The translations under genes were made by a program, and so were the position numbers. DNA of 52,298 bases, from contig NZ_QOCB01000032.1 in the NCBI RefSeq assembly GCF_003318165.1, forward strand, positions 1-52,298, given 5' to 3'. The stretch comes from Psychromonas sp. B3M02. GTDB taxonomy: Bacteria; Pseudomonadota; Gammaproteobacteria; Enterobacterales; Psychromonadaceae. Positions 37,819-52,134 of the stretch are shown in pieces; positions within the stretch are counted from its first letter, which is position 1, and the number at the start of each line of letters is the position of its first letter. The notes under the pieces were generated by a model. It was not told where the DNA came from and did not search any database. It saw only the letters and a list, made by a program, of their open reading frames with translations.

Positions 37819-38868
37819 ATGAAATATTCCCGCGTTTATATCAATAGTATGGCTTATGAATTAGCCCCTGAAGTGGTCTCAAGTTCAGAATTGGAATCTA
37901 GACTTGCACCTTTGTATCAAAAATTGCGCATCCCAACAGGACAACTTGCGGCACTAACAGGTATTGAACAAAGAAGATGGTGGCCTAAAGACCATCGTCT
38001 ATCCGACGGTGCCATCGAAGCAGCTAAAAGATCATTAAACGAGACAGGTGTGAACGTCGACGATATTGGTGCTGTGGTTTACACAGGCGTATGTCGTGAT
38101 CAACACGAGCCTGCTACTGCATGTCGTATTGCGGCCGAATTAGGTGTTAATAAAAGCACTGCTATTTACGATATCAGTAACGCCTGTTTAGGTGTGTTAT
38201 CAGGTATTTTAGATATTGCAAACCGCATTGAACTTGGTCAAATTAAGGCTGGTTTAGTGGTGTCTTGTGAATCTGCACGGCACATTGTTGATATCACTAT
38301 CGACAACATGCTTTCAAACCAAAGTATTCAAAACTTTTCTCAATCACTGGCGACATTAACCGGTGGTTCAGGCGCAGTTGCAGTTTTATTAACAGACGGC
38401 AGCTTGCCTTTACACAATCAACGTCAGCATAAATTATTAGGTGCAAGCCACTTATCTGCACCAGAACATCATGACCTGTGTAAATGGGGACTACAGGAAG
38501 TTGGTCTTAAATTACACCGTGAATTTATGCGCACCAATGCTGTGCCGCTGCTTAAAGAAGGGGTTGCGCTAGCATTAGACACCTGGAAAGACTTCTTATC
38601 ACAACAACAATGGTCAGTGGACAGTGTTGATAAAGTGATTTGTCACCAAGTAGGTTCAGCGAACCAAAAACAAGTGTTAAGTGCACTTAATATTCCATCT
38701 GAAAAAGAGTATCCCACTTATCAATATTTGGGCAACATGGGCACGGTATCCTTACCTGTCACTGCGGCATTAGCCGATGAAAATGGATTTTTACAAAAAG
38801 GCGACAAAGTCAGCTTTTTAGGAATAGGCAGTGGATTGAACTGCATGATGCTTGGATTGGAGTGGTAA
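37819..38868 (+). CDS. oleA: OleA, acyl-CoA condensing thiolase
   Basis: Joins two fatty acyl-CoAs head to head, giving a 2-alkyl-3-oxoacid, the first step of long-chain olefin synthesis. The 349-aa thiolase-fold protein has the catalytic Cys123 (SNACLGVL), His276 (ICHQVGSANQ) and Asn306 (YLGNMGTV), plus Glu97 in DQHEPAT, which matches the glutamate from the neighbouring subunit proposed as base in OleA. These features separate OleA from FabH. It is the first gene of a four-gene operon; its stop is followed by one base and then the oleB ATG. The leading ATG lies after AGAGAAAA. Confidence 0.94.
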   Translation: MKYSRVYINSMAYELAPEVVSSSELESRLAPLYQKLRIPTGQLAALTGIEQRRWWPKDHRLSDGAIEAAKRSLNETGVNVDDIGAVVYTGVCRDQHEPATACRIAAELGVNKSTAIYDISNACLGVLSGILDIANRIELGQIKAGLVVSCESARHIVDITIDNMLSNQSIQNFSQSLATLTGGSGAVAVLLTDGSLPLHNQRQHKLLGASHLSAPEHHDLCKWGLQEVGLKLHREFMRTNAVPLLKEGVALALDTWKDFLSQQQWSVDSVDKVICHQVGSANQKQVLSALNIPSEKEYPTYQYLGNMGTVSLPVTAALADENGFLQKGDKVSFLGIGSGLNCMMLGLEW

Positions 38869-38869
38869 G

Positions 38870-39751
38870 ATGAATTTTGATAGTTTATTCCCTTTTAGAC
38901 GTAACTTTTTAAAGCTTAATGGGCAACAATACCACTACCTAAACGAAGGTAAAGGCGAACCTGTTGTGATGGTACACGGTAATCCAAGCTGGTCTTTCTA
39001 CTACCGCAACTTAGTGACGGAACTTAGTCATCAATATCAATGTATCGTACCGGATCATATCGGTTGTGGTTTATCTGATAAACCATCAGACAAAGATTAC
39101 GACTACACCTTAAATCAGCGTATTAATGACCTAGAGTCACTGTTAGACCACCTTGATATTAAACAAAACATCACTCTAGTGGTTCATGACTGGGGTGGTA
39201 TGATTGGTATGGGCTATGCAGCGCGTTACCCTGAAAGAATTAAACGTTTAGTGGTGTTGAACACTGCTGCCTTTAATCTACCAAGCACTAAGAAATTCCC
39301 GGTGCCACTTTGGATCTGCCGGAATACTTATTTAGGTACCGCATTAGTGCGTGGCTTAAACGCTTTCTCTTCAATCGCCTCTTATGTCGGTGTGAAGCGT
39401 AAGCCAATGCCAAAAACTATCCGTGAAGCCTATGTTGCGCCATTTAACTCTTGGAAAAACCGTATCTCAACATTACGTTTTGTACAGGATATTCCATTAG
39501 TGAAAACTGACCGTAACTACAAGTTAGTTGAAAGTATCGATAACAGCTTGCAACAGTTTCAAAAAGTACCAACTGTAATCTGTTGGGGCTTACAAGACTT
39601 TGTATTTGATAAACACTTTTTAGATGTTTGGAAACAAAAAATGCCTCATGCAGATATACATGAATTTGCAGACTGTGGTCACTACATACTGGAAGATGCC
39701 AGTAATGAAGTGATTAACATTGTGCAGAAATTTATGGCGACAAACCCATAA
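38870..39751 (+). CDS. oleB: OleB, beta-lactone decarboxylase
   Basis: An alpha/beta hydrolase of the haloalkane-dehalogenase group that in the ole pathway removes CO2 from the beta-lactone to give the cis-olefin. From ATG 38870 it is 293 aa. It shows the oxyanion segment VHGNPSWSFYY (35-45), the nucleophile Asp107 in VVHDWGGMIG, and a late histidine in DCGHYILEDA. The start is one base after the oleA stop with GGAG in the oleA end, so it is translationally coupled; the frame remains open slightly further upstream inside oleA. Confidence 0.92.
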   Translation: MNFDSLFPFRRNFLKLNGQQYHYLNEGKGEPVVMVHGNPSWSFYYRNLVTELSHQYQCIVPDHIGCGLSDKPSDKDYDYTLNQRINDLESLLDHLDIKQNITLVVHDWGGMIGMGYAARYPERIKRLVVLNTAAFNLPSTKKFPVPLWICRNTYLGTALVRGLNAFSSIASYVGVKRKPMPKTIREAYVAPFNSWKNRISTLRFVQDIPLVKTDRNYKLVESIDNSLQQFQKVPTVICWGLQDFVFDKHFLDVWKQKMPHADIHEFADCGHYILEDASNEVINIVQKFMATNP

Positions 39752-41449
39752 ATGGCCAACACCAAACCTTCTAAACGAAGTCTTAAAAAACAAGCTAAGG
39801 CGGCAAAAGGAAACTTATGTCGCCACTTAGTCACAGCATCACAAAAAATCCCCGATAAATTGGCCGTCAGTGTGCAACAAAACACACGCAGTGGCCTCAC
39901 CTATCAAGAGATAGACTTTAAAACGTTACACCAACAAAGTGACGATATCGCCTTTGCTTTAACCGAGTTTGGTCTTAAACCCGGCACAAAAGCAGTATTA
40001 ATGGTGACACCCAGCATTGCTTTCTTTAACTTAACCTTTGCATTATTCAAAGCCGGTATTGTGCCTATTTTAGTTGACCCAGGTATGGGTATTAAAAATT
40101 TAAAACAATGCTTTGAAGAGTCGCAACCGGAAGCCTTTATCGGTATCCCAAAGGCACAGCTAGCACGTTTGTTATTTGCTTGGGGTAAGCAAACCATTAA
40201 GCATGTAATTAATGTTGGCGGCCCTGCACTTGCTGGCGGCAAACAACTCACAAGTTTATTAAAAAAATATCCGCGTACTTCCCTGTTCAAAATGCAGGAA
40301 CCACCATTAGATAAACTAGCGGCCATCTTATTCACCAGTGGTAGCACAGGCACTCCCAAAGGTGTGGTTTATACTCACAGAATGTTTGAAGCACAGATCC
40401 AAGTATTAAAACACGATTACCAAATAAAATCCGGTGAAATGGACTTAGCTACTTTTCCACTATTCTCATTATTTGGTCCAGCATTAGGCATGGCCTCCAT
40501 TGTGCCAGATATGGATGCTAGTCAGCCCATTAAAGCTAATCCAGACTTCATCTTTGCTGCCATTGAAAAATACAAATGCACTAACCTATTTGCCAATCCA
40601 GCATTGTTAGAAGTATTAGGCAAAGCAGGACAAAGCAAACGACATAGTTTACCCAGCTTAAAACGCGTCATATCTGCAGGTGCACCCGCTTCAATTGACG
40701 CAATTAACCGTTTCAGTGAAATGCTCACAGGCAATGCAGAAGTCATTAACTCCTACGGCGCAACTGAATCATTACCGATCAGTAAAATGGGTAGTAAACA
40801 GATGCTCAAAACAGCACAAATTACTGAACAAGGTGGCGGTATTTGTGTCGGTTATGCCATTGATAACGTCGATATTAGCATTATCAAAATAGATGAAGAT
40901 ATTATCCAAAACTGGCATTCGGACTTAACTTTACCCGCTTTTGAAATTGGCGAGATTGTAGTAAAAGGCCCACAAGTGAGTGCAACCTATTATCGTCGTG
41001 AAAGTGCCACTGAATTAGCGAAGATTAACGATGGCGATCAGATCAGGCATCGCATGGGTGATTTAGGTTACCTTGATGACCAAGGTAAATTATGGATGTG
41101 CGGCCGTAAAGCACATCGCGTTGAATCTAATCATCTACAAAACGCTAAATCTTATTACTCCATTCCCTGTGAGCGCATCTTTAATACCCACAAAAGTATT
41201 AAACGCAGTGCATTAGTGACAATACAAAAAGATGGAAAATCAACACCAGCCGTCTGTATTGAAGTCGCTGACAACAACAAGCTTGATAACTCACGTTTAT
41301 TCTTTGAGTTACAAGAGTTAGCTGAAAAACATAGCCATACTCAAGGTATTAGCCTATTTTATATTCATAAGAAGTTTCCTATGGATATTCGCCATAACGC
41401 TAAAATATTCCGTGAAAAATTAGCCGTTTGGGCACAACAACAGAGTTAA
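39752..41449 (+). CDS. oleC: OleC, beta-lactone synthetase
   Basis: ATP-dependent acyl-adenylate-family enzyme that converts the 2-alkyl-3-hydroxyacid to a beta-lactone. The 565-aa protein has the AMP-binding loop [17 protein letters not shown] (about 192-208), the YGATE motif ([11 protein letters not shown]) and the [18 protein letters not shown] region before the C-terminal cap. The N-terminus is Lys-rich ([15 protein letters not shown]), which is unusual but keeps the start because the ATG directly abuts the oleB stop. Family identity rests on the ole context; general acyl-CoA ligases share the motifs. Confidence 0.92.
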
Positions 41450-41451
41450 CT

Positions 41452-42528
41452 ATGCAGATACCCAACCTGAATTTTTCTGAACTTTTAATAGAACAACAAG
41501 CTGTGCTAACGCGTTTAACGACACAGGTAAACTGTGTGTTTGTGACTGGTGCAGGCGGGTTCTTAGGTACTGCTTTATGTCGTTTTTTACGTGCGGTCGA
41601 TATTAAAGTGGTTGGCTTTGCCCGTGGTAACTACCCTCACCTCAAAGAGTTAGGTGTCACCTTGATCAAAGGTGACCTTCAAGATAAACAAGCTGTCATC
41701 GATGCAATGCAAGGTTGCGATATGGTATTTCATGTGGCCTCTAAAGCCGGTGTTTGGGGAGATAAAGAGAGTTACTTCAAGCCCAACGTAGTCGGCACTG
41801 AAAACATCATTGCAGCTTGTCATCAGCACAAGATTAACAAGTTTATTTACACCAGCACACCCAGTGTGACTTTTGCAGGTGAAGATGAAGACTATATCGA
41901 TGAATCTCAGCCCTACGCCAAACAATTCTTAAACTTTTATGGGCTATCAAAAGCCGTTGCAGAGCAAAAAGTTTTAGAGGCTAACAGTGAAACACTTAAA
42001 ACCGTCGCTTTACGTCCTCACCTTATTTGGGGTCCAGGCGATCCACATCTTATACCGCGTGTAATAGAGCGAGCAAAAGCCGGTAAACTAAAGCTGGTAG
42101 GTAAAAAAGATAAGCTAGTGGACACCACTTATATCGACAATGCCGTGTATGCTCACCTGATTGCGGCGGTCACACTCAGTGAAGACAACTCCGCGTGTGC
42201 TGGGAAAGCCTACTTCATTAGTAATGATCAACCTATCCTAATGGCTGATATGCTCAATAACATCTTAGCTGTAGCTGGCTTAAATAAAGTCAGCGCGCGT
42301 GTACCAAGTGGTCTGGCATACTTTGTTGGCACCCTATTAGAGTGGTGGTATTTAAAAACAGGCAAACAAGATGAGCCAATCATGACCCGCTTTGTCGCTA
42401 AACAGTTATCCACCAGCCATTACTTTAACCTAGACGCCGCAAAACAAGACTTTAATTACCAAGCCCTAGTCTCAATGGAACAAGGCATGAAGCAGTTACA
42501 AAATGATTTAAGAAACACTGAGGAATGA
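41452..42528 (+). CDS. oleD: OleD, 2-alkyl-3-oxoalkanoate reductase
   Basis: NADPH-dependent extended short-chain dehydrogenase that reduces the OleA product to the 2-alkyl-3-hydroxyacid. From ATG 41452 it is 358 aa. The cofactor loop is VTGAGGFLGTALC (31-43) and the catalytic pair is Tyr163 and Lys167 in FYGLSKAVAEQ. It starts two bases after the oleC stop. Its stop codon at 42526-42528 lies at the edge of the heptamer repeat array, whose first inverted units begin in the last codons of the gene. It completes the oleABCD set. Confidence 0.93.
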   Translation: MQIPNLNFSELLIEQQAVLTRLTTQVNCVFVTGAGGFLGTALCRFLRAVDIKVVGFARGNYPHLKELGVTLIKGDLQDKQAVIDAMQGCDMVFHVASKAGVWGDKESYFKPNVVGTENIIAACHQHKINKFIYTSTPSVTFAGEDEDYIDESQPYAKQFLNFYGLSKAVAEQKVLEANSETLKTVALRPHLIWGPGDPHLIPRVIERAKAGKLKLVGKKDKLVDTTYIDNAVYAHLIAAVTLSEDNSACAGKAYFISNDQPILMADMLNNILAVAGLNKVSARVPSGLAYFVGTLLEWWYLKTGKQDEPIMTRFVAKQLSTSHYFNLDAAKQDFNYQALVSMEQGMKQLQNDLRNTEE

Positions 42529-43303: not shown

Positions 43304-43960
43304 AATAGGTTCTTGAATAAAAATGAGTAAAGATTATAGTCTATCTGCTTTTGAAATATTTAAAATTATTTAGCTTCATAGATGACTTACTTTCATAACA
43401 ATTCATGACAAAAAAATACTCTGCTATGCCTTAAAAATGACAATCAGCTTTTAATAGCTTTGCATAATACGACCTGCCAAATACGGCGTAATGATAGAAG
43501 TTGGCATACAAGCAGGATTAATTACCACACAATACATTAATATTAATGCAAAAGATGCTTAGCGCAGTATTAGATTATATTGAACAATCTAATTTTAATA
43601 TCCTAAACATACTTAAGGATTATGATGCCTTTTATTTCATAGCATTCCTTTATCCAACTAAACCTGACTTTAAAGAGAGTGAAATCAGTAGCGCCTAATC
43701 GCCTACCTTATTTAAATAAATAGACTGCAATCTAGAAGAGTATATATTGAAATACAGCGGGAATAATTTCTATTAAAATCAACCGAAATGAATTTACGTT
43801 GGCAAGTAAATCAGCTTTTCTTCTTTACTTTAAAAGAGTGCTATCGTGTTTATCTCTAAACGAATAATAACTATTTGATCACAACCGATCACCGCATTGA
43901 AGGTTGTTTTTTGTAGAATTAGGCAGATTGCAAAAAGAGCGAAATACGCTCTTTTGGGAG
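43304..43960. other. Gene-free stretch at core/accessory junction
   Basis: About 650 AT-rich bases with no convincing gene. Near its end, AAAAAGAGCG and CGCTCTTTT (43932-43954) form a hairpin with a T tract that could act as a terminator for minus-strand or plus-strand transcripts. The right end contains the outer end of a mobile element at 43975. Confidence 0.5.
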
Positions 43961-43975
43961 AAGTTGTACAGCCTC
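43956..43975 (-). mobile_element. Mobile-element end abutting an attC site
   Basis: Reading the minus strand from 43975, GAGGCTGTACAACTTCTC resembles the terminal repeat of the MITE at 51874 and the IS end at 46092. It abuts AAC (43976-43978) of an attC R' box. The other end of this element is not identified. Confidence 0.55.
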
Positions 43976-44088
43976 AACGCCGCAAACACTGGTGCTGTTT
44001 TTGCTGGCTTTTTATTTTTAGCAAAAACCGCGACAACCGTAATGCGTGATCTTCACCCGCAAAAGTGGACACCGTCCACTTGTTATAT
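43976..44088 (-). repeat. attC site of the DUF2971 cassette
   Basis: The R'' side on the minus strand is ATATAAC (44088-44082), containing the stop codon of the gene; the R' side is GCGGCGTT (43983-43976), interrupted by an element end. The interior has the inverted pair GTTTTTGCT/AGCAAAAAC and the palindrome AAGTGGAC-GGT-GTCCACTT. The length is about 113 bases. Confidence 0.7.
44048..44087. repeat. 40-bp hairpin module, copy 1
   Basis: Begins TGATCTTCACCCGCAAAAGT and continues GGACACCGTCCACTTGTTAT. The same 40 bases, with a single G-to-T change, recur at 52093-52132. Contains an 8-bp palindrome with a 3-nt loop. Confidence 0.85.
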
Positions 44089-44958
44089 CTTTGCTAAGCC
44101 TTTTTCTTGCAATTGTTCTAAAGCACCAAAAAAGCTCGTCACACGCTCTGTTCTTAATGTTGAGCTAGTAACAACATTTATTCCTTTACTCTCACAAAGT
44201 TGCTTTATTGAATCAGAAAACCAAACATCCGCTTTAGGAGATATTACAACTTTATCAATTAACTCAGGTAGAGAGGTAATTGTTAATTCTATTCCATTTG
44301 CTTCGTTTTTTACTGCTGAGTTCAAATTTAAGCAAGGATCATAAGCTATCAAACGAGCTTCTTTTTCAAAACTGAATGGTAAAGATTTAGCTAAAAATGG
44401 CTCGATAGCCCCACAATTCAACGTTGCACTTTTATGGTTAATATACTTAACATCTTCTAATTCAATTTTATTTATATTACCTTGAATATTGTTAACTTGA
44501 CTGAGAAGTTTTTCCTCAGTGGTAAATATACAAACTGAATTGTTGTCACCACCATAAAGTGACCACATAGCCGAACATTCATGCAAAGATTTGTGCCAGC
44601 AACTTACGTAAATCCACTCTCTACATCGAGGAAATACTTTATCTATATCATTTCTTTGGTACTCGCCAAAAGGAGTTTTAAATGTTCTCTGTTCGATCTC
44701 TTCACTTACTTTTTTAGCCATTTCAAGACGACTTACCCGATCCTCTTTTGTTTCATTGACCCGAGGAGCAAAGCCATTCATTGCAACATCTAAATGTGCA
44801 CCATCATTTGAGGATGACAAATAATCATTGGCTGTAAGCCCCCCCTCTAAATGATCATCGAAAATCGACATTTTAGGCAAGAACAATGAGCTTTTTTGTA
44901 ATAAGAATAGAAACTTTGGCAGATCCATATACCTTTGCAAGATAACATCAGATTTCAT
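44083..44958 (-). CDS. DUF2971 cassette protein
   Basis: A 291-aa protein matching the DUF2971 pattern: an N-terminal region with FLLQKSSLFLPKMSIFDDHLEG, the central WIYVSCWHKSLHECSAMWSLY block (about 137-157) and the later FSFEKEARLIAYD. The family function is not established; members are frequent in mobile and integron contexts. AAGGA lies six bases before the start. The stop codon lies within the attC R'' box, and another attC precedes the gene, so it forms a complete integron cassette. It has no obvious membrane segment. Confidence 0.8.
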   Translation of the reverse strand: MKSDVILQRYMDLPKFLFLLQKSSLFLPKMSIFDDHLEGGLTANDYLSSSNDGAHLDVAMNGFAPRVNETKEDRVSRLEMAKKVSEEIEQRTFKTPFGEYQRNDIDKVFPRCREWIYVSCWHKSLHECSAMWSLYGGDNNSVCIFTTEEKLLSQVNNIQGNINKIELEDVKYINHKSATLNCGAIEPFLAKSLPFSFEKEARLIAYDPCLNLNSAVKNEANGIELTITSLPELIDKVVISPKADVWFSDSIKQLCESKGINVVTSSTLRTERVTSFFGALEQLQEKGLAKI

Positions 44959-44993: not shown

Positions 44994-45069
44994 GCTTATA
45001 ACGCCAAAATCAGCGATTGCTAAAAAGCGTCAGCTTTTTGGCAATCCGCTGCATTTTCTTGTTATGTTT
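44994..45069 (-). repeat. attC site of the acyltransferase cassette
   Basis: On the minus strand ACATAAC (R'', 45067-45061) opens the site and GCGTTATAAG (R') closes it. Between them GGATTGCC and AAAAAGC are mirrored by GCTTTTT and GCAATC, giving the classic imperfect hairpin with a short TGAC loop. The length is about 75 bases, typical for short attC sites. Confidence 0.85.
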
Positions 45070-46053
45070 GTAGCTATGGCGTATATATTTTAAAGATGGT
45101 TTTTCTATGAATTTAGATATAATTGTTGCTAAAACAATACACAAAATAACAGAAACCAATATTCCAATTAATGGATTAAACTGCATTGCATAAAACTTAT
45201 TAATAATAACGTAGCCAATATTTTGATGAATAAGGTACAGGGAATAAGATATACTACCCATAAAAACGAACGGTTTAAATTGCAAAAATCTCATGCGCCC
45301 TGACAAAGCCAGATAAAATACAATATAAAAAACAGCAAACACCAAGAAATGCTTGAAAGAATATATCGCAGAAGTCGATAGCAAAGAAAAAAGCAAGATA
45401 AAAATATTTCTTTTAAAATCATTGCCCTGATTTGTTATTTTGTAAAAACAAATTCCAGCGACAAAAAATGGAAGATATTTCATAATAAAAATTTTATATA
45501 TAGGTGTGGGGATATCTATAACGCCTATTGAATGCAAAATAGAAAAACCAATTATAAAAGAAAATAGTATCTCAGCTTTATCAAGGCTAGATCTAAGATA
45601 GAATACAAACATCCAAAAATAGAATGTCAACTCAACTGTAAGAGTCCAATAAACTCCATCCGCATGCGGTATTTTTAAGTATTCTTGAAACATTAGAATA
45701 TTTATTAATGCATCACGTAAAGATACTTCCCTTCCTGGGAGGCCATAAAACGAAACAATTAAAAATGTAATTAATAGTGCGCACCAATAAGCAGGATAAA
45801 GCCTAGAAAATCTAGATACAATAAAATCTAAAGGCTTATCTGCTCTATTTAGAGTCCAAAAAATAACAAAACCACTGACCATAAAAAATAACTCGACGCC
45901 AAGTTTTCCGACAAGAGACCAATCTACGATCAAACTTTCGTGACCATATATGCCGTTGTAACGATAAAAATAATGGAAGCAAACCACTGCTAATGCAGCG
46001 ATTCCTCTAAGAGCATCCAGCTCTAATAATCTTTGCCCTCTTTGACCTTTCAT
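45010..46053 (-). CDS. Acyltransferase-3 family membrane protein
   Basis: A 347-aa polytopic membrane protein of the acyltransferase-3 (OafA-like) family, whose members O-acylate surface polysaccharides or antibiotics. The N-terminal LLELDALRGIAALAVVCFHY carries the family Arg and His; FMVSGFVIF and FSRLYPAYW (RLYP motif) follow, with about ten hydrophobic helices. GAGG lies five bases before the start. The final ~20 codons (from about YKHNKKMQRIAKK) are encoded by the attC site itself. Substrate unknown. A relic IS interrupts the attC on its upstream side. Confidence 0.9.
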   Translation of the reverse strand: MKGQRGQRLLELDALRGIAALAVVCFHYFYRYNGIYGHESLIVDWSLVGKLGVELFFMVSGFVIFWTLNRADKPLDFIVSRFSRLYPAYWCALLITFLIVSFYGLPGREVSLRDALINILMFQEYLKIPHADGVYWTLTVELTFYFWMFVFYLRSSLDKAEILFSFIIGFSILHSIGVIDIPTPIYKIFIMKYLPFFVAGICFYKITNQGNDFKRNIFILLFSLLSTSAIYSFKHFLVFAVFYIVFYLALSGRMRFLQFKPFVFMGSISYSLYLIHQNIGYVIINKFYAMQFNPLIGILVSVILCIVLATIISKFIEKPSLKYIRHSYKHNKKMQRIAKKLTLFSNR

Positions 46054-46084: not shown

Positions 46085-46091
46085 ACATAAC
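46085..46091 (-). repeat. attC R' remnant next to IS end
   Basis: GTTATGT on the minus strand lies just upstream of the acyltransferase gene, where the attC of a preceding cassette would end. The rest of the site is replaced by the IS1182-like element beginning at 46092. Confidence 0.55.
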
Positions 46092-46745
46092 GAGGCTGTA
46101 GAATTTCTCATTCTCAGCCCGAATTTTAATTATAAAAGCACAGTATTTTATATTTACTTGAGATTCAAATAGATTATTCACTTTTCAATAAATGATTGAT
46201 TAAATTGAGTTGTAAGAGTGTTTATGAGGTTAATTAGGTTGGATTATTGCGAATTAAGGGCTTAGCCCTTGGATTAATGTAAACTATTCCTTAACTTCTC
46301 TATATTATGAACGAGACAGTACATTTTCCATTGTGTATTCACTTTATCTTGGCCGCGCAGCGTAAATTTATTCATCCCTTTATTCACTGTAATATTACCG
46401 AACACAGGCTCAATAGCACCGAGTCGTTTGCTGTATTCTCGCCTGCCTGGACTGCTATCTATTTTGACTCGCATTTTATCAGTATACGAGATGGGTTTTG
46501 CAGATACATTTATTTCAAACTGAACCTGCCGACCTTGTTTTTGTGGGTTTCTTTGTCATGCATTGAGTTTACAGCGGGCAAACACGGTAATCTTTTAAAT
46601 ACCCTGAGTAGCGTACATAATGTCGACCTGCTGTTTCGACATTTTTAACACTTAGCCACATTTCTTTACCTGCAGGGCAATGACTCGTTTGCTTCTTTGA
46701 TACGTTTCACTTTGATTAAATAACGCGTACACGCGAACATCCACT
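46092..46745 (-). mobile_element. IS1182-family element, truncated relic
   Basis: The outer end GAGGCTGTAGAATTTCTC (46092-46109) resembles the MITE termini at 51874, and a decayed IS1182-type transposase lies inside. I cannot find the other terminal repeat, so the right limit marks only the recognisable coding remains. Confidence 0.65.
46274..46745 (-). pseudogene. IS1182-family transposase, C-terminal remnant
   Basis: In one minus-strand frame HCPAGKEMWLSVKN is followed by DYRVCPL and a stop; in another frame GRQVQFEINVSAKPISYTDK leads into a 66-codon open segment containing EYSKRLGAIEPVFGNI, NKGMNKFTLRG and NTQWKMYCLVHNIEK. These are the conserved C-terminal blocks of IS1182-family DDE transposases. 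The N-terminal half is missing and at least one frameshift separates the blocks, so the gene is dead. Confidence 0.88.
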
Positions 46746-49189: not shown

Positions 49190-49530
49190 GGAAAACTTTC
49201 CACAATGAAGACACTCATTTTTGCTCGCACTGGATTCAAATCAACACAAGCCATGCAAGTTAATAGCGTATCTTCGTCTGATAGTGCTTGAGATTTAAAT
49301 CGACCTTCCCACTAATTTGCAGGGAACAAATTAGAACAGCTTTACGCGCAATGAATTCGTTTAAACAACGCATAAACCATGAAATATCCGCTAATACAGA
49401 GAAACTAGGTAAATGATTTTCCCGTCTATTTATCTTCTCCACACAGATAAGCTCGACGAACACAGCGGGAAATACAATGGTAATAAGGGGTATCAGATAA
49501 CGATATCTGAGATTGGTGTGACTGCGTCAT
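49190..49530 (-). pseudogene. REP-associated Y1 transposase (RAYT), relic
   Basis: Three blocks in different minus-strand frames rebuild a TnpA-REP protein. The N-terminus from ATG 49530 reads SLSDTPYYHCISRCVRRAYL then GEDK and a stop; a second frame gives SVLADISWFMRCLNEFIA; a third gives [19 protein letters not shown] leading to DLNPVRAKM. The first block holds the HxH-like YHCISR region of Y1 transposases. Large internal deletions and frameshifts show it is dead. Confidence 0.9.
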
Positions 49531-51138: not shown

Positions 51139-51249
51139 TATTTAACGCCCGCAGAAGCTGCGGAACATGTTGAACGCTTTTTTGCGTTATTTGCTTTAAG
51201 CAAAAAATCGGACAATGTGTGACGTCAGATTTAATGCGCTTGTTAGGTA
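51139..51249 (-). repeat. attC site with consensus core boxes
   Basis: On the minus strand ACCTAAC (R'', 51248-51242) and GTTAAAT (R', 51146-51140) match the RYYYAAC and GTTRRRY consensus exactly. The stop codon of the upstream gene lies in R''. The inside includes the hairpin CCGCAG/CTGCGG immediately before R'. About 110 bases. Confidence 0.92.
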
Positions 51250-51854
51250 CTTATAGTTCTCCTGTACCACCATAACTTTAACTCTGATTCTGATTCTGAT
51301 TCTGAACCAAAGTTTGTAAGTACATGAATGACTCCATAATCATCAGGAAGATAAACACGATGTTGACTCAATAATTTTTCTATTCTGTCTATATACTCGG
51401 GAACTCTCTTGTGGAATGCTGTTGCACTTTTATTCACTTTACTAAATGGGTTCTTAATATGAAGCATGTCACCACATGAATCATAAGCAACTTGAAATTG
51501 TTTTAAAGTCAGAAAACCAGAGTTGACGTCATTCCATGAACCATCAAAATACCCTTTTGTTGGAATAGGGTAAAATCTAGGATTTATATTTTCGATCTTT
51601 TTTACAATGCGTTTAGCATGCCAGTCTTTGCCAATATCCTCCCGAATAGCCCTATATTGCTCCTTGTGGCAAACTAAAGATGAATAAGCTATTAATTCTA
51701 GCAATTTTCTCAATTGCAAGGCTTCAGTTTCAATCTGAGCTTTTAAATAAATCACGTCAGCTTCGCCAGAAATCAAAGCCTTAAGAACTTCTAATCTTTT
51801 TTCAATTTCCCACATTAAGCTAAGATATTTTTTTCTAGCGCGCGATGTGTCCAT
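51243..51854 (-). CDS. Coiled-coil cassette protein, unknown
   Basis: A 203-aa soluble protein, not recognised as a named family. The N-terminal part (about 10-75) is a predicted coiled coil (YLSLMWEIEKRLEVLKAL). The middle holds aromatic, Gly-rich segments (RFYPIPTKGYFDGSW), and the C-terminus contains a SESESESE run encoded by a short TCTGAT-type 6-bp repeat (about 51283-51304). GGAGG lies five bases before the start. Both ends are bounded by attC sites, making it an integron cassette. Confidence 0.7.
   Translation of the reverse strand: MDTSRARKKYLSLMWEIEKRLEVLKALISGEADVIYLKAQIETEALQLRKLLELIAYSSLVCHKEQYRAIREDIGKDWHAKRIVKKIENINPRFYPIPTKGYFDGSWNDVNSGFLTLKQFQVAYDSCGDMLHIKNPFSKVNKSATAFHKRVPEYIDRIEKLLSQHRVYLPDDYGVIHVLTNFGSESESESELKLWWYRRTIST
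51283..51304 (-). repeat. 6-bp microsatellite in coding sequence
   Basis: TCTGAT-type units (plus strand) repeat about three to four times and encode alternating Ser-Glu. Copy number changes would stay in frame. Confidence 0.8.
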
Positions 51855-51873
51855 GAGCCTCCGTATGCCTAAC

Positions 51874-52019
51874 GAGGCTGTAGAATAACTCCAACAGCCA
51901 AAATTAATAAAAAATAGAGCTCCTATAACGAATTCTAAGCGTTTTTCTCACCCTAGGTAATGCATTTGAAACCCATAAAGTCGACTATTTTTCTTATAAA
52001 AGAGTTATTCTACGGTCTC
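51874..52019. mobile_element. 146-bp MITE inserted in attC
   Basis: Terminal inverted repeats are GAGGCTGTAGAATAACTC (left, 51874-51891) and GAGACCGTAGAATAACTC (right, read from 52019), matching at 16 of 18 positions. The flanks AAC (51871-51873) and AAC (52020-52022) look like a 3-bp target duplication. No open frame inside. Likeness to the IS1182-like end at 46092 suggests mobilisation by that family. Confidence 0.85.
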
Positions 52020-52092
52020 AACGCCGCGTTAAGCGGACTAAAATTATTGGTTAAAATGTGGAGCGAAGCGGAACCTAACCAACTGTTTTAGT

Positions 52093-52132
52093 TGATCTTC
52101 ACCCGCAAAAGTGGACACCTTCCACTTGTTAT
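52093..52132. repeat. 40-bp hairpin module, copy 2
   Basis: Same as 44048-44087 except for one base (ACACCT instead of ACACCG). It occupies the R'' side of the split attC next to the stop codon of the rightmost gene. Confidence 0.85.
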
Positions 52133-52134
52133 AC

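Follow-up and report, generated by a model that had tools for sequence, protein, structure and literature searches.

The right end of a 52,298-nucleotide stretch of DNA from Psychromonas sp. B3M02 (contig NZ_QOCB01000032.1, positions 1 to 52,298, referred to here as the window) is a cassette array on the minus strand, and one of the cassette recombination sites (attC) in this array is interrupted by a 146-bp element at 51874-52019. Judged from its own sequence and that of its relatives, this element is very probably a miniature inverted-repeat transposable element (MITE) of an IS1182-type insertion sequence (IS) family of marine bacteria that is directed to attC. The element ends, the duplication that flanks them, the attC context and the orientation recur among related genomes, and relatives carry a full-length element with matching ends.

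An earlier, sequence-only reading had a 146-bp element with 18-bp ends splitting the R' box GTTAGGC exactly at the attC recombination point, with AAC doubled at the two ends, and this description proved accurate down to the triplet. The arms (51874-51891 and 52002-52019, 18 nt each) are 89% complementary. The list of open reading frames (ORFs) gives none of at least 60 amino acids within the element, which has no gene of its own. A covariance model of attC built from 27 sites (model R1) matches the interrupted site at 52020-52111 on the minus strand (45.7 bits, E 5e-9), and its R'' box, GTATAACAAG, extends it by eye to 52134; the 27 sites used for the model include neither this one nor a near-identical relative in L001. 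The site has the order R''-L''...L'-R' with a fold and a terminal GTT, and the body at 52020-52134, folded as DNA, gives a z of -2.6. The features at this locus are as follows.

51874-52019, unstranded: putative MITE of 146 bp, terminal inverted repeats of 18 bp, GAGGCTGTAGAATAACTC / GAGTTATTCTACGGTCTC
51871-51873, unstranded: left copy of the target-site duplication AAC, at the end of the R' box remainder
52020-52022, unstranded: right copy of the target-site duplication AAC
52020-52134, minus: attC body (R'' to GTT) of the cassette at the right window end, the occupied target
51867-51873, minus: GTTAGGC, comprising the rest of the R' box and the beginning of the next cassette
51243-51854, minus: cassette gene adjoining the element, no Pfam or NCBIfam match
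51144-51248, minus: attC of that cassette gene, unoccupied, 44.6 bits (model R1)

The element combines a length below about 400 bp, inverted ends, a target duplication and the lack of a transposase with ends that match those of an autonomous element. The latter is an IS1182-type IS of about 1.85 kb with ends GAGGCTGTAGAATTTCTC and a transposase of about 510 residues, as read from copies that have both ends and an open gene. In L081 this transposase carries PF13751 (DDE_Tnp_1_6, 115.4 bits) and PF05598 (N-terminal DUF772, 57.6 bits), both above cut-off, and its best NCBIfam model is NF033551 (IS1182) at E 1e-77, against 1e-9 for IS5_4. The label IS1182-like, given in the sequence-only reading, is established by a remnant at 46277-46600 (minus) and by the full-length relatives, which carry the same ends, and not by the geneless short element itself.

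Of the 295 genomes of the order that were searched with the C-terminal transposase piece, 25, among them the window's own, contain relatives. A scan of species genomes returned 89, and the best 80 of these 89 come from Psychromonas, Colwellia, Pseudoalteromonas, Shewanella, Marinomonas, Psychrosphaera, Thalassotalea and others. Of 2185 plasmid records with some match, three reach 60-80% identity, and no relative was found in phage contigs. Short forms are common, as 53 of 100 complete copies flanked by GTT on both sides measure less than 400 bp. Read by eye for a possible guide RNA in 26 copies, the stretches flanking the transposase gene differ between genera. A unit of 2.66 kb in L089 (30-2688) shares these ends, and within it an ORF resembling Y1/REP-associated tyrosine transposases (below cut-offs) accompanies a fragment of the IS1182 transposase.

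Target triplet, attC context and orientation

We sought the exact end pattern in the 295 genomes regardless of transposase and found it in 30 of them (168 matches as the table sum), while a reversed control pattern gave no match in the same 295. Ends were read at the whole-genome loci among the matches listed, which represent the three richest genomes (G237, G257 and G187) in part. Among the matches listed there are 156 distinct exact ends, 75 of which abut AAC and 74 GTT (149 of 156 together); when one mismatch is allowed, the figure becomes 156 of 160. In the window's own genome, where 31 places lie within two mismatches of GAGGCTGTANAANNNCTC, GTT or AAC adjoins 10 of the 11 ends with at most one mismatch, and GCT adjoins the eleventh. 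Given these 10 of 11 and 149 of 156 ends, the adjacency to AAC is not a matter of chance, and the preference that the sequence-only reading proposed to look for by tabulating flanks in related genomes is borne out. Of the 20 two-mismatch places in the same genome, the context marks two (C93:52019 and C1:27610) as real ends; 17 with other flanks resemble chance matches, and one was not read.

Complete copies, with both ends in whole genomes or named contigs, number 62. GTT flanks 58 of these on both sides, three show a single-base difference on one side, and one has ATT on both sides. This last copy, a complete IS in L124 (2369-4236), sits at a site that is attC by model (72.5 bits), and the G of GTT is therefore not strictly required.

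By a hand count over two match lists, an attC-model match (E at most 0.01) ends exactly at the junction in 49 of the 62 complete copies, and in 32 of the 45 that lie outside the model's training set. Exact GTT-side ends, a set that overlaps the complete copies, give 58 of 74, and 43 of 59 outside the training set. The target choice for attC that had been suggested from three insertions in the window is in this manner seen in the related copies as well; rather than most copies lying outside attC, or flanks lacking a preference for AAC, we observe the opposite. A comparison of empty and filled sites agrees with this. Of 158 GTT-side flanks, 73 have element-free homologues that extend to the junction (an upper figure, as some flanks are stacked elements), and 613 of 626 alignments show A as the next base there, as expected of a GTTA cassette boundary.

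The orientation of the insertions is uniform. Complete copies longer than 400 bp number 44; the transposase is readable in 42 and unreadable in two, and in all 42 the side of the GTT and attC body lies upstream of the transposase gene. One could suppose that insertion is near random and that copies survive only in cassette joints, where they are harmless. Such joints would be intergenic, which speaks for this proposal, yet survival cannot by itself fix the exact nucleotide in 149 of 156 ends, nor the orientation in 42 of 42 copies, and 40 sites elsewhere with the motif described below are empty. We regard it as the most improbable of the explanations considered here.

Occupancy was counted in 20 stretches of five related genomes chosen for their attC calls, where 10 of 99 attC sites are occupied and 89 are empty; the 99 are those of 111 model matches that reach at least 30 bits, the 12 weaker ones being left out.

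Movement of the element and competing explanations

In all likelihood the short element is a MITE that is mobilized in trans by a DDE transposase of IS1182 type, and the IS encoding this enzyme uses the same target. The transposase would insert at the GTT of the attC R' box by a 3-bp staggered cut, duplicating 3 bp, such that the left end joins the attC body, the right end joins the start of the next cassette, and the transposase gene runs in the cassette direction. It may read the 3' arm of attC, approximately T(T/G)A-N4-GGC-GTT, as duplex DNA, aided by further attC context. The stacking of elements directly on an earlier GTT suggests that the right half, RRRY, is dispensable. The integrase would take no part, and the IS1182-type transposase would likewise move the MITE.

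Since the integron integrase recombines at G^TT, it might instead have placed the elements, with the double GTT as a product of recombination and not a target-site duplication. Cassette insertion likewise leaves GTT on both sides, and the own genome encodes an integron integrase on another contig (C108:31639-32586, 441.8 bits). Against this, inspection by eye shows no attC body at the right junction, CTACAGCCTC-GTT, and the ends are fixed 18-bp inverted repeats common to the transposase-bearing element. Furthermore, the same duplication flanks a few copies situated outside attC, one of them clearly within a gene, and another copy is the one flanked by ATT on both sides. The Psychromonas copy L225 lies between open pieces of 88 and 156 residues, the larger being DUF6776, and the Marinomonas copy L119 at the end of a 136-residue open piece without Pfam match, its other side having no open frame of 60. 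Both have GTT on either side, and neither they nor L079 (placed outside attC by eye alone) have an attC-model match at the junction, L119 not even at E 1. As such copies carry the same duplication, the elements were probably moved by the transposase rather than by the integrase, and placement by the integrase appears highly improbable.

What marks the site was approached through the flanks themselves. Eight positions preceding GTT exceed 1 bit each, roughly CC-N2-TTA-N4-GGC, and most sites have a short palindrome, CC-N2-TTA-N4-GG, directly 5' of CGTT, with each position 83-94% conserved. In six genomes the motif CTTANNNNGGCGTT occurs at 106 sites, of which 12 of the 66 within attC calls are occupied (by a list compiled by hand) versus none of the 40 elsewhere (p 0.003), some of which may be attC since the attC search scored the best 150 candidates per genome. 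One additional attC site with the motif carries a degenerate end. The 40 empty sites led us to reject the linear motif alone as sufficient; more than a short motif therefore matters, and attC context adds something. Two other candidates were set aside. The mini-palindrome CNNTTANNNNGGCGTT, as a mark of the attC sites chosen, is present at 9 of 10 occupied and 49 of 89 empty sites (p 0.04), but occupied and empty sites do not differ in a looser form of it (p 0.44), and we do not rely on it. Complementarity of R'' with the R' tail across the insertion was exact in 2 of 62 copies, versus a mean of 3.4 for shuffled partners, and held with one mismatch in 22 of 62 versus 22.6, which gives no signal; since the sequence that follows GTT is part of the next cassette, this comparison counts neither way.

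These properties also bear on the proposal that the transposase recognizes folded attC DNA, as IS1272 does hairpins, with primary sequence of minor importance. Available excerpts describe insertion of IS1272 and TnSha1 into stem-loops (PMC5678879, PMC4923244), and the conserved palindrome and the absence of insertions at all 40 motif sites outside attC calls would suit a folded target. IS1272, however, removes the stem-loop and makes no duplication, whereas here the attC body is kept and 3 bp are duplicated; the insertion in L225 occurred at CTTAATGAAGCGTT, which has neither the palindrome nor an attC match; and eight arm positions of more than 1 bit each are hard to square with a minor role for sequence. 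Recognition of a fold is conceivable but, on balance, unlikely.

A number of points weigh against the transposase-driven reading that we favor. Seven of 156 exact ends (among the matches listed) abut neither GTT nor AAC, and 13 of the 62 complete copies have no model match at E 0.01. Among these 13, four (L061, L068, L102 and L154) adjoin another element in a stack, two (L067 and L076) are recurring cassette boundaries by homology, and weaker junction matches are present in L002 (E 0.014), in L061 again (0.019) and in L097 (0.033); L060, L079, L098 and L119 have none. Of the 16 among 74 GTT-side ends without a model match, L068 and L216 belong to stacks, L067 and L195 are identified by homology as cassette boundaries, and L079 and L225 lie outside attC. 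The remaining 10 are unclassified; one is cut by a contig end, and in another, L223, the junction is reached by a frame that stays open for 187 residues. The outside-attC sites also score unevenly on a matrix of the attC arm, at 9.8 (L119), -1.7 (L225) and -5.3 (L079) relative to 18.7 at the median and -2.5 at the 5th percentile of the training sites, and 4, 28 and 67 of the 2268 GTT sites in the window, respectively, score as high or higher. Their resemblance to the arm, as scored, is good for L119 and weak for L225 and L079, and these sites therefore back reading of the arm only in part. The full-length transposases, at 261.8 and 263.7 bits, fall slightly below the 270-bit cut-off of NF033551; a relative at 45% identity scores 273.1 bits. 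A distant relative in G003 (45% identity) forms one complete copy with GTT on both sides and without an attC match at its junction. The own genome holds only transposase fragments. Last, the copies are not all independent, as 12 pairs share upstream sequence, some of them being stacks. That sharing would be expected if the high count reflected a few events copied along with cassettes, but the 62 complete copies have distinct flanks in at least eight named genera, and 12 GTT-side flanks, some being stacks, have an element-free homologue of at least 180 bp. We consider so small a number of events more improbable still than placement by the integrase.

Other ends and features of the window

The sequence-only reading had placed two further ends, at 43975/43976 and 46091/46092, beside AAC of attC remnants. 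AAC adjoins both, at 43976-43978 next to the end GAGGCTGTACAACTTCTC and at 46089-46091; the attC at 43976 has no match to model R1, and its assignment was made by eye alone. In the window, model R1 matches at 52020-52111, 51144-51248 and 45000-45067. The features concerned are listed below.

46092-46600, minus: IS1182-type remnant, with its right end at 46092-46109 and a C-terminal transposase piece containing stops at 46277-46600
46089-46091, unstranded: AAC adjoining the right end GAGGCTGTAGAATTTCTC of this remnant
43770-43975, minus: second IS remnant, with a left end at 43958-43975 and a decayed transposase gene start; inner limit approximate, by eye
43976-44090, minus: attC-like body that ends in GCGGCGTT, occupied by the left end at 43958-43975; set by eye from R'' ATAACAAG
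45000-45067, minus: attC between two cassettes, unoccupied, 38.5 bits (model R1)
45010-46053, minus: cassette gene, acyltransferase family 3 (PF01757)
44083-44958, minus: cassette gene with a weak DUF2971 match (PF11185, 23.1 bits, cut-off 22)

A short ORF at 49260-49463 (minus) contains the string FMRCLNEFIARKA, which by eye is common to the ORF of L089, and is probably a remnant of a gene of that type. Elsewhere in the window are a Small SRP RNA (RF00169, 10936-11031, 65.4 bits) and, at 37819-42528, a run of four genes of ketoacyl synthase III-like, hydrolase, ligase and reductase type (named by eye, with a search for the first gene), which we take to resemble the ole hydrocarbon cluster.

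Cassette arrays and known systems

Stacked elements adjoin the attC body or another element and are separated only by GTT. At one attC in L154 (2082-2714), a pair of MITEs and the beginning of a third element lie head to tail with only GTT between them, and L102, L061 and L068 each have two stacked elements. In two related genomes, at the loci L358 (3376-3663) and L359 (3075-3361), a MITE is followed by GTTA and then by a group II intron (RF02005), an arrangement in which mobile elements of two different kinds share a single R' box.

After insertion the attC body and GTT persist and are followed by GAG, such that the junction reads GTTGAGG and the element's GAG stands as the RRR of GTTRRRY. 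An occupied attC might for this reason stay usable by the integrase, with the element forming the 5' end of the cassette that follows and travelling with it, and cassettes serving as its vehicles. We are doubtful that it does, and no instance of an element travelling with its cassette was found; the three pairs with the same right flank consist of two single-locus stacks and of L211/L215, which share a group II intron. Were the family attC-directed in the manner proposed, integron arrays would host a third kind of attC-directed parasite, and occupation of attC (10 of the 99 counted in the chosen stretches of five related genomes) may freeze or reshape cassette mobility. A DDE transposase that chooses one triplet and one orientation could also provide a tractable system for studying how target specificity is gained.

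Among the matches listed in the open-access literature, we found no report tying IS1182-type elements or MITEs to attC targeting, in keeping with the sequence-only reading, which knew of no such description for an IS1182-like family. The open-access scope means that this absence is not proof of novelty. The portion of PMC9137128 available names IS1182 and attC in one table and draws no link between them. Within the literature searched, attC choice is unlinked to the IS1182-type family, which is known for hairpin targets.

Comparable systems differ from the present family in mechanism or in setting. That IS1111-type elements are attracted to attC was already known, as the sequence-only reading held: in the excerpts available, the IS1111-attC group (ISKpn4, ISPst6, ISPa21) targets one end of cassette attC sites (PMC11187229, PMC11616780). 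Both are insertion sequences directed to attC, but that group uses a DEDD transposase guided by a seekRNA, while the transposase here is of the DDE_Tnp_1_6/DUF772 type and the element has terminal inverted repeats and a 3-bp duplication. Group IIC-attC introns are likewise mobile elements that use attC, inserting in the bottom strand at TTGT/T according to the accessible part of PMC7923331. Unlike the present family, they are ribozyme retroelements without terminal repeats or a DDE transposase, and the window has no Rfam intron match at gathering score. In Acinetobacter, short inverted-repeat elements also occur beside integrons; as far as the extracts of PMC10969869 go, those MITEs flank whole class 1 integrons, whereas the present ones sit inside attC between cassettes. 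IS1272 and TnSha1 belong to the same broad transposase family (by NCBI model) and also show a special choice of target, but in the sections available they replace varied stem-loops without duplication (PMC5678879, PMC4923244), whereas the family described here duplicates one attC triplet and retains the attC body.
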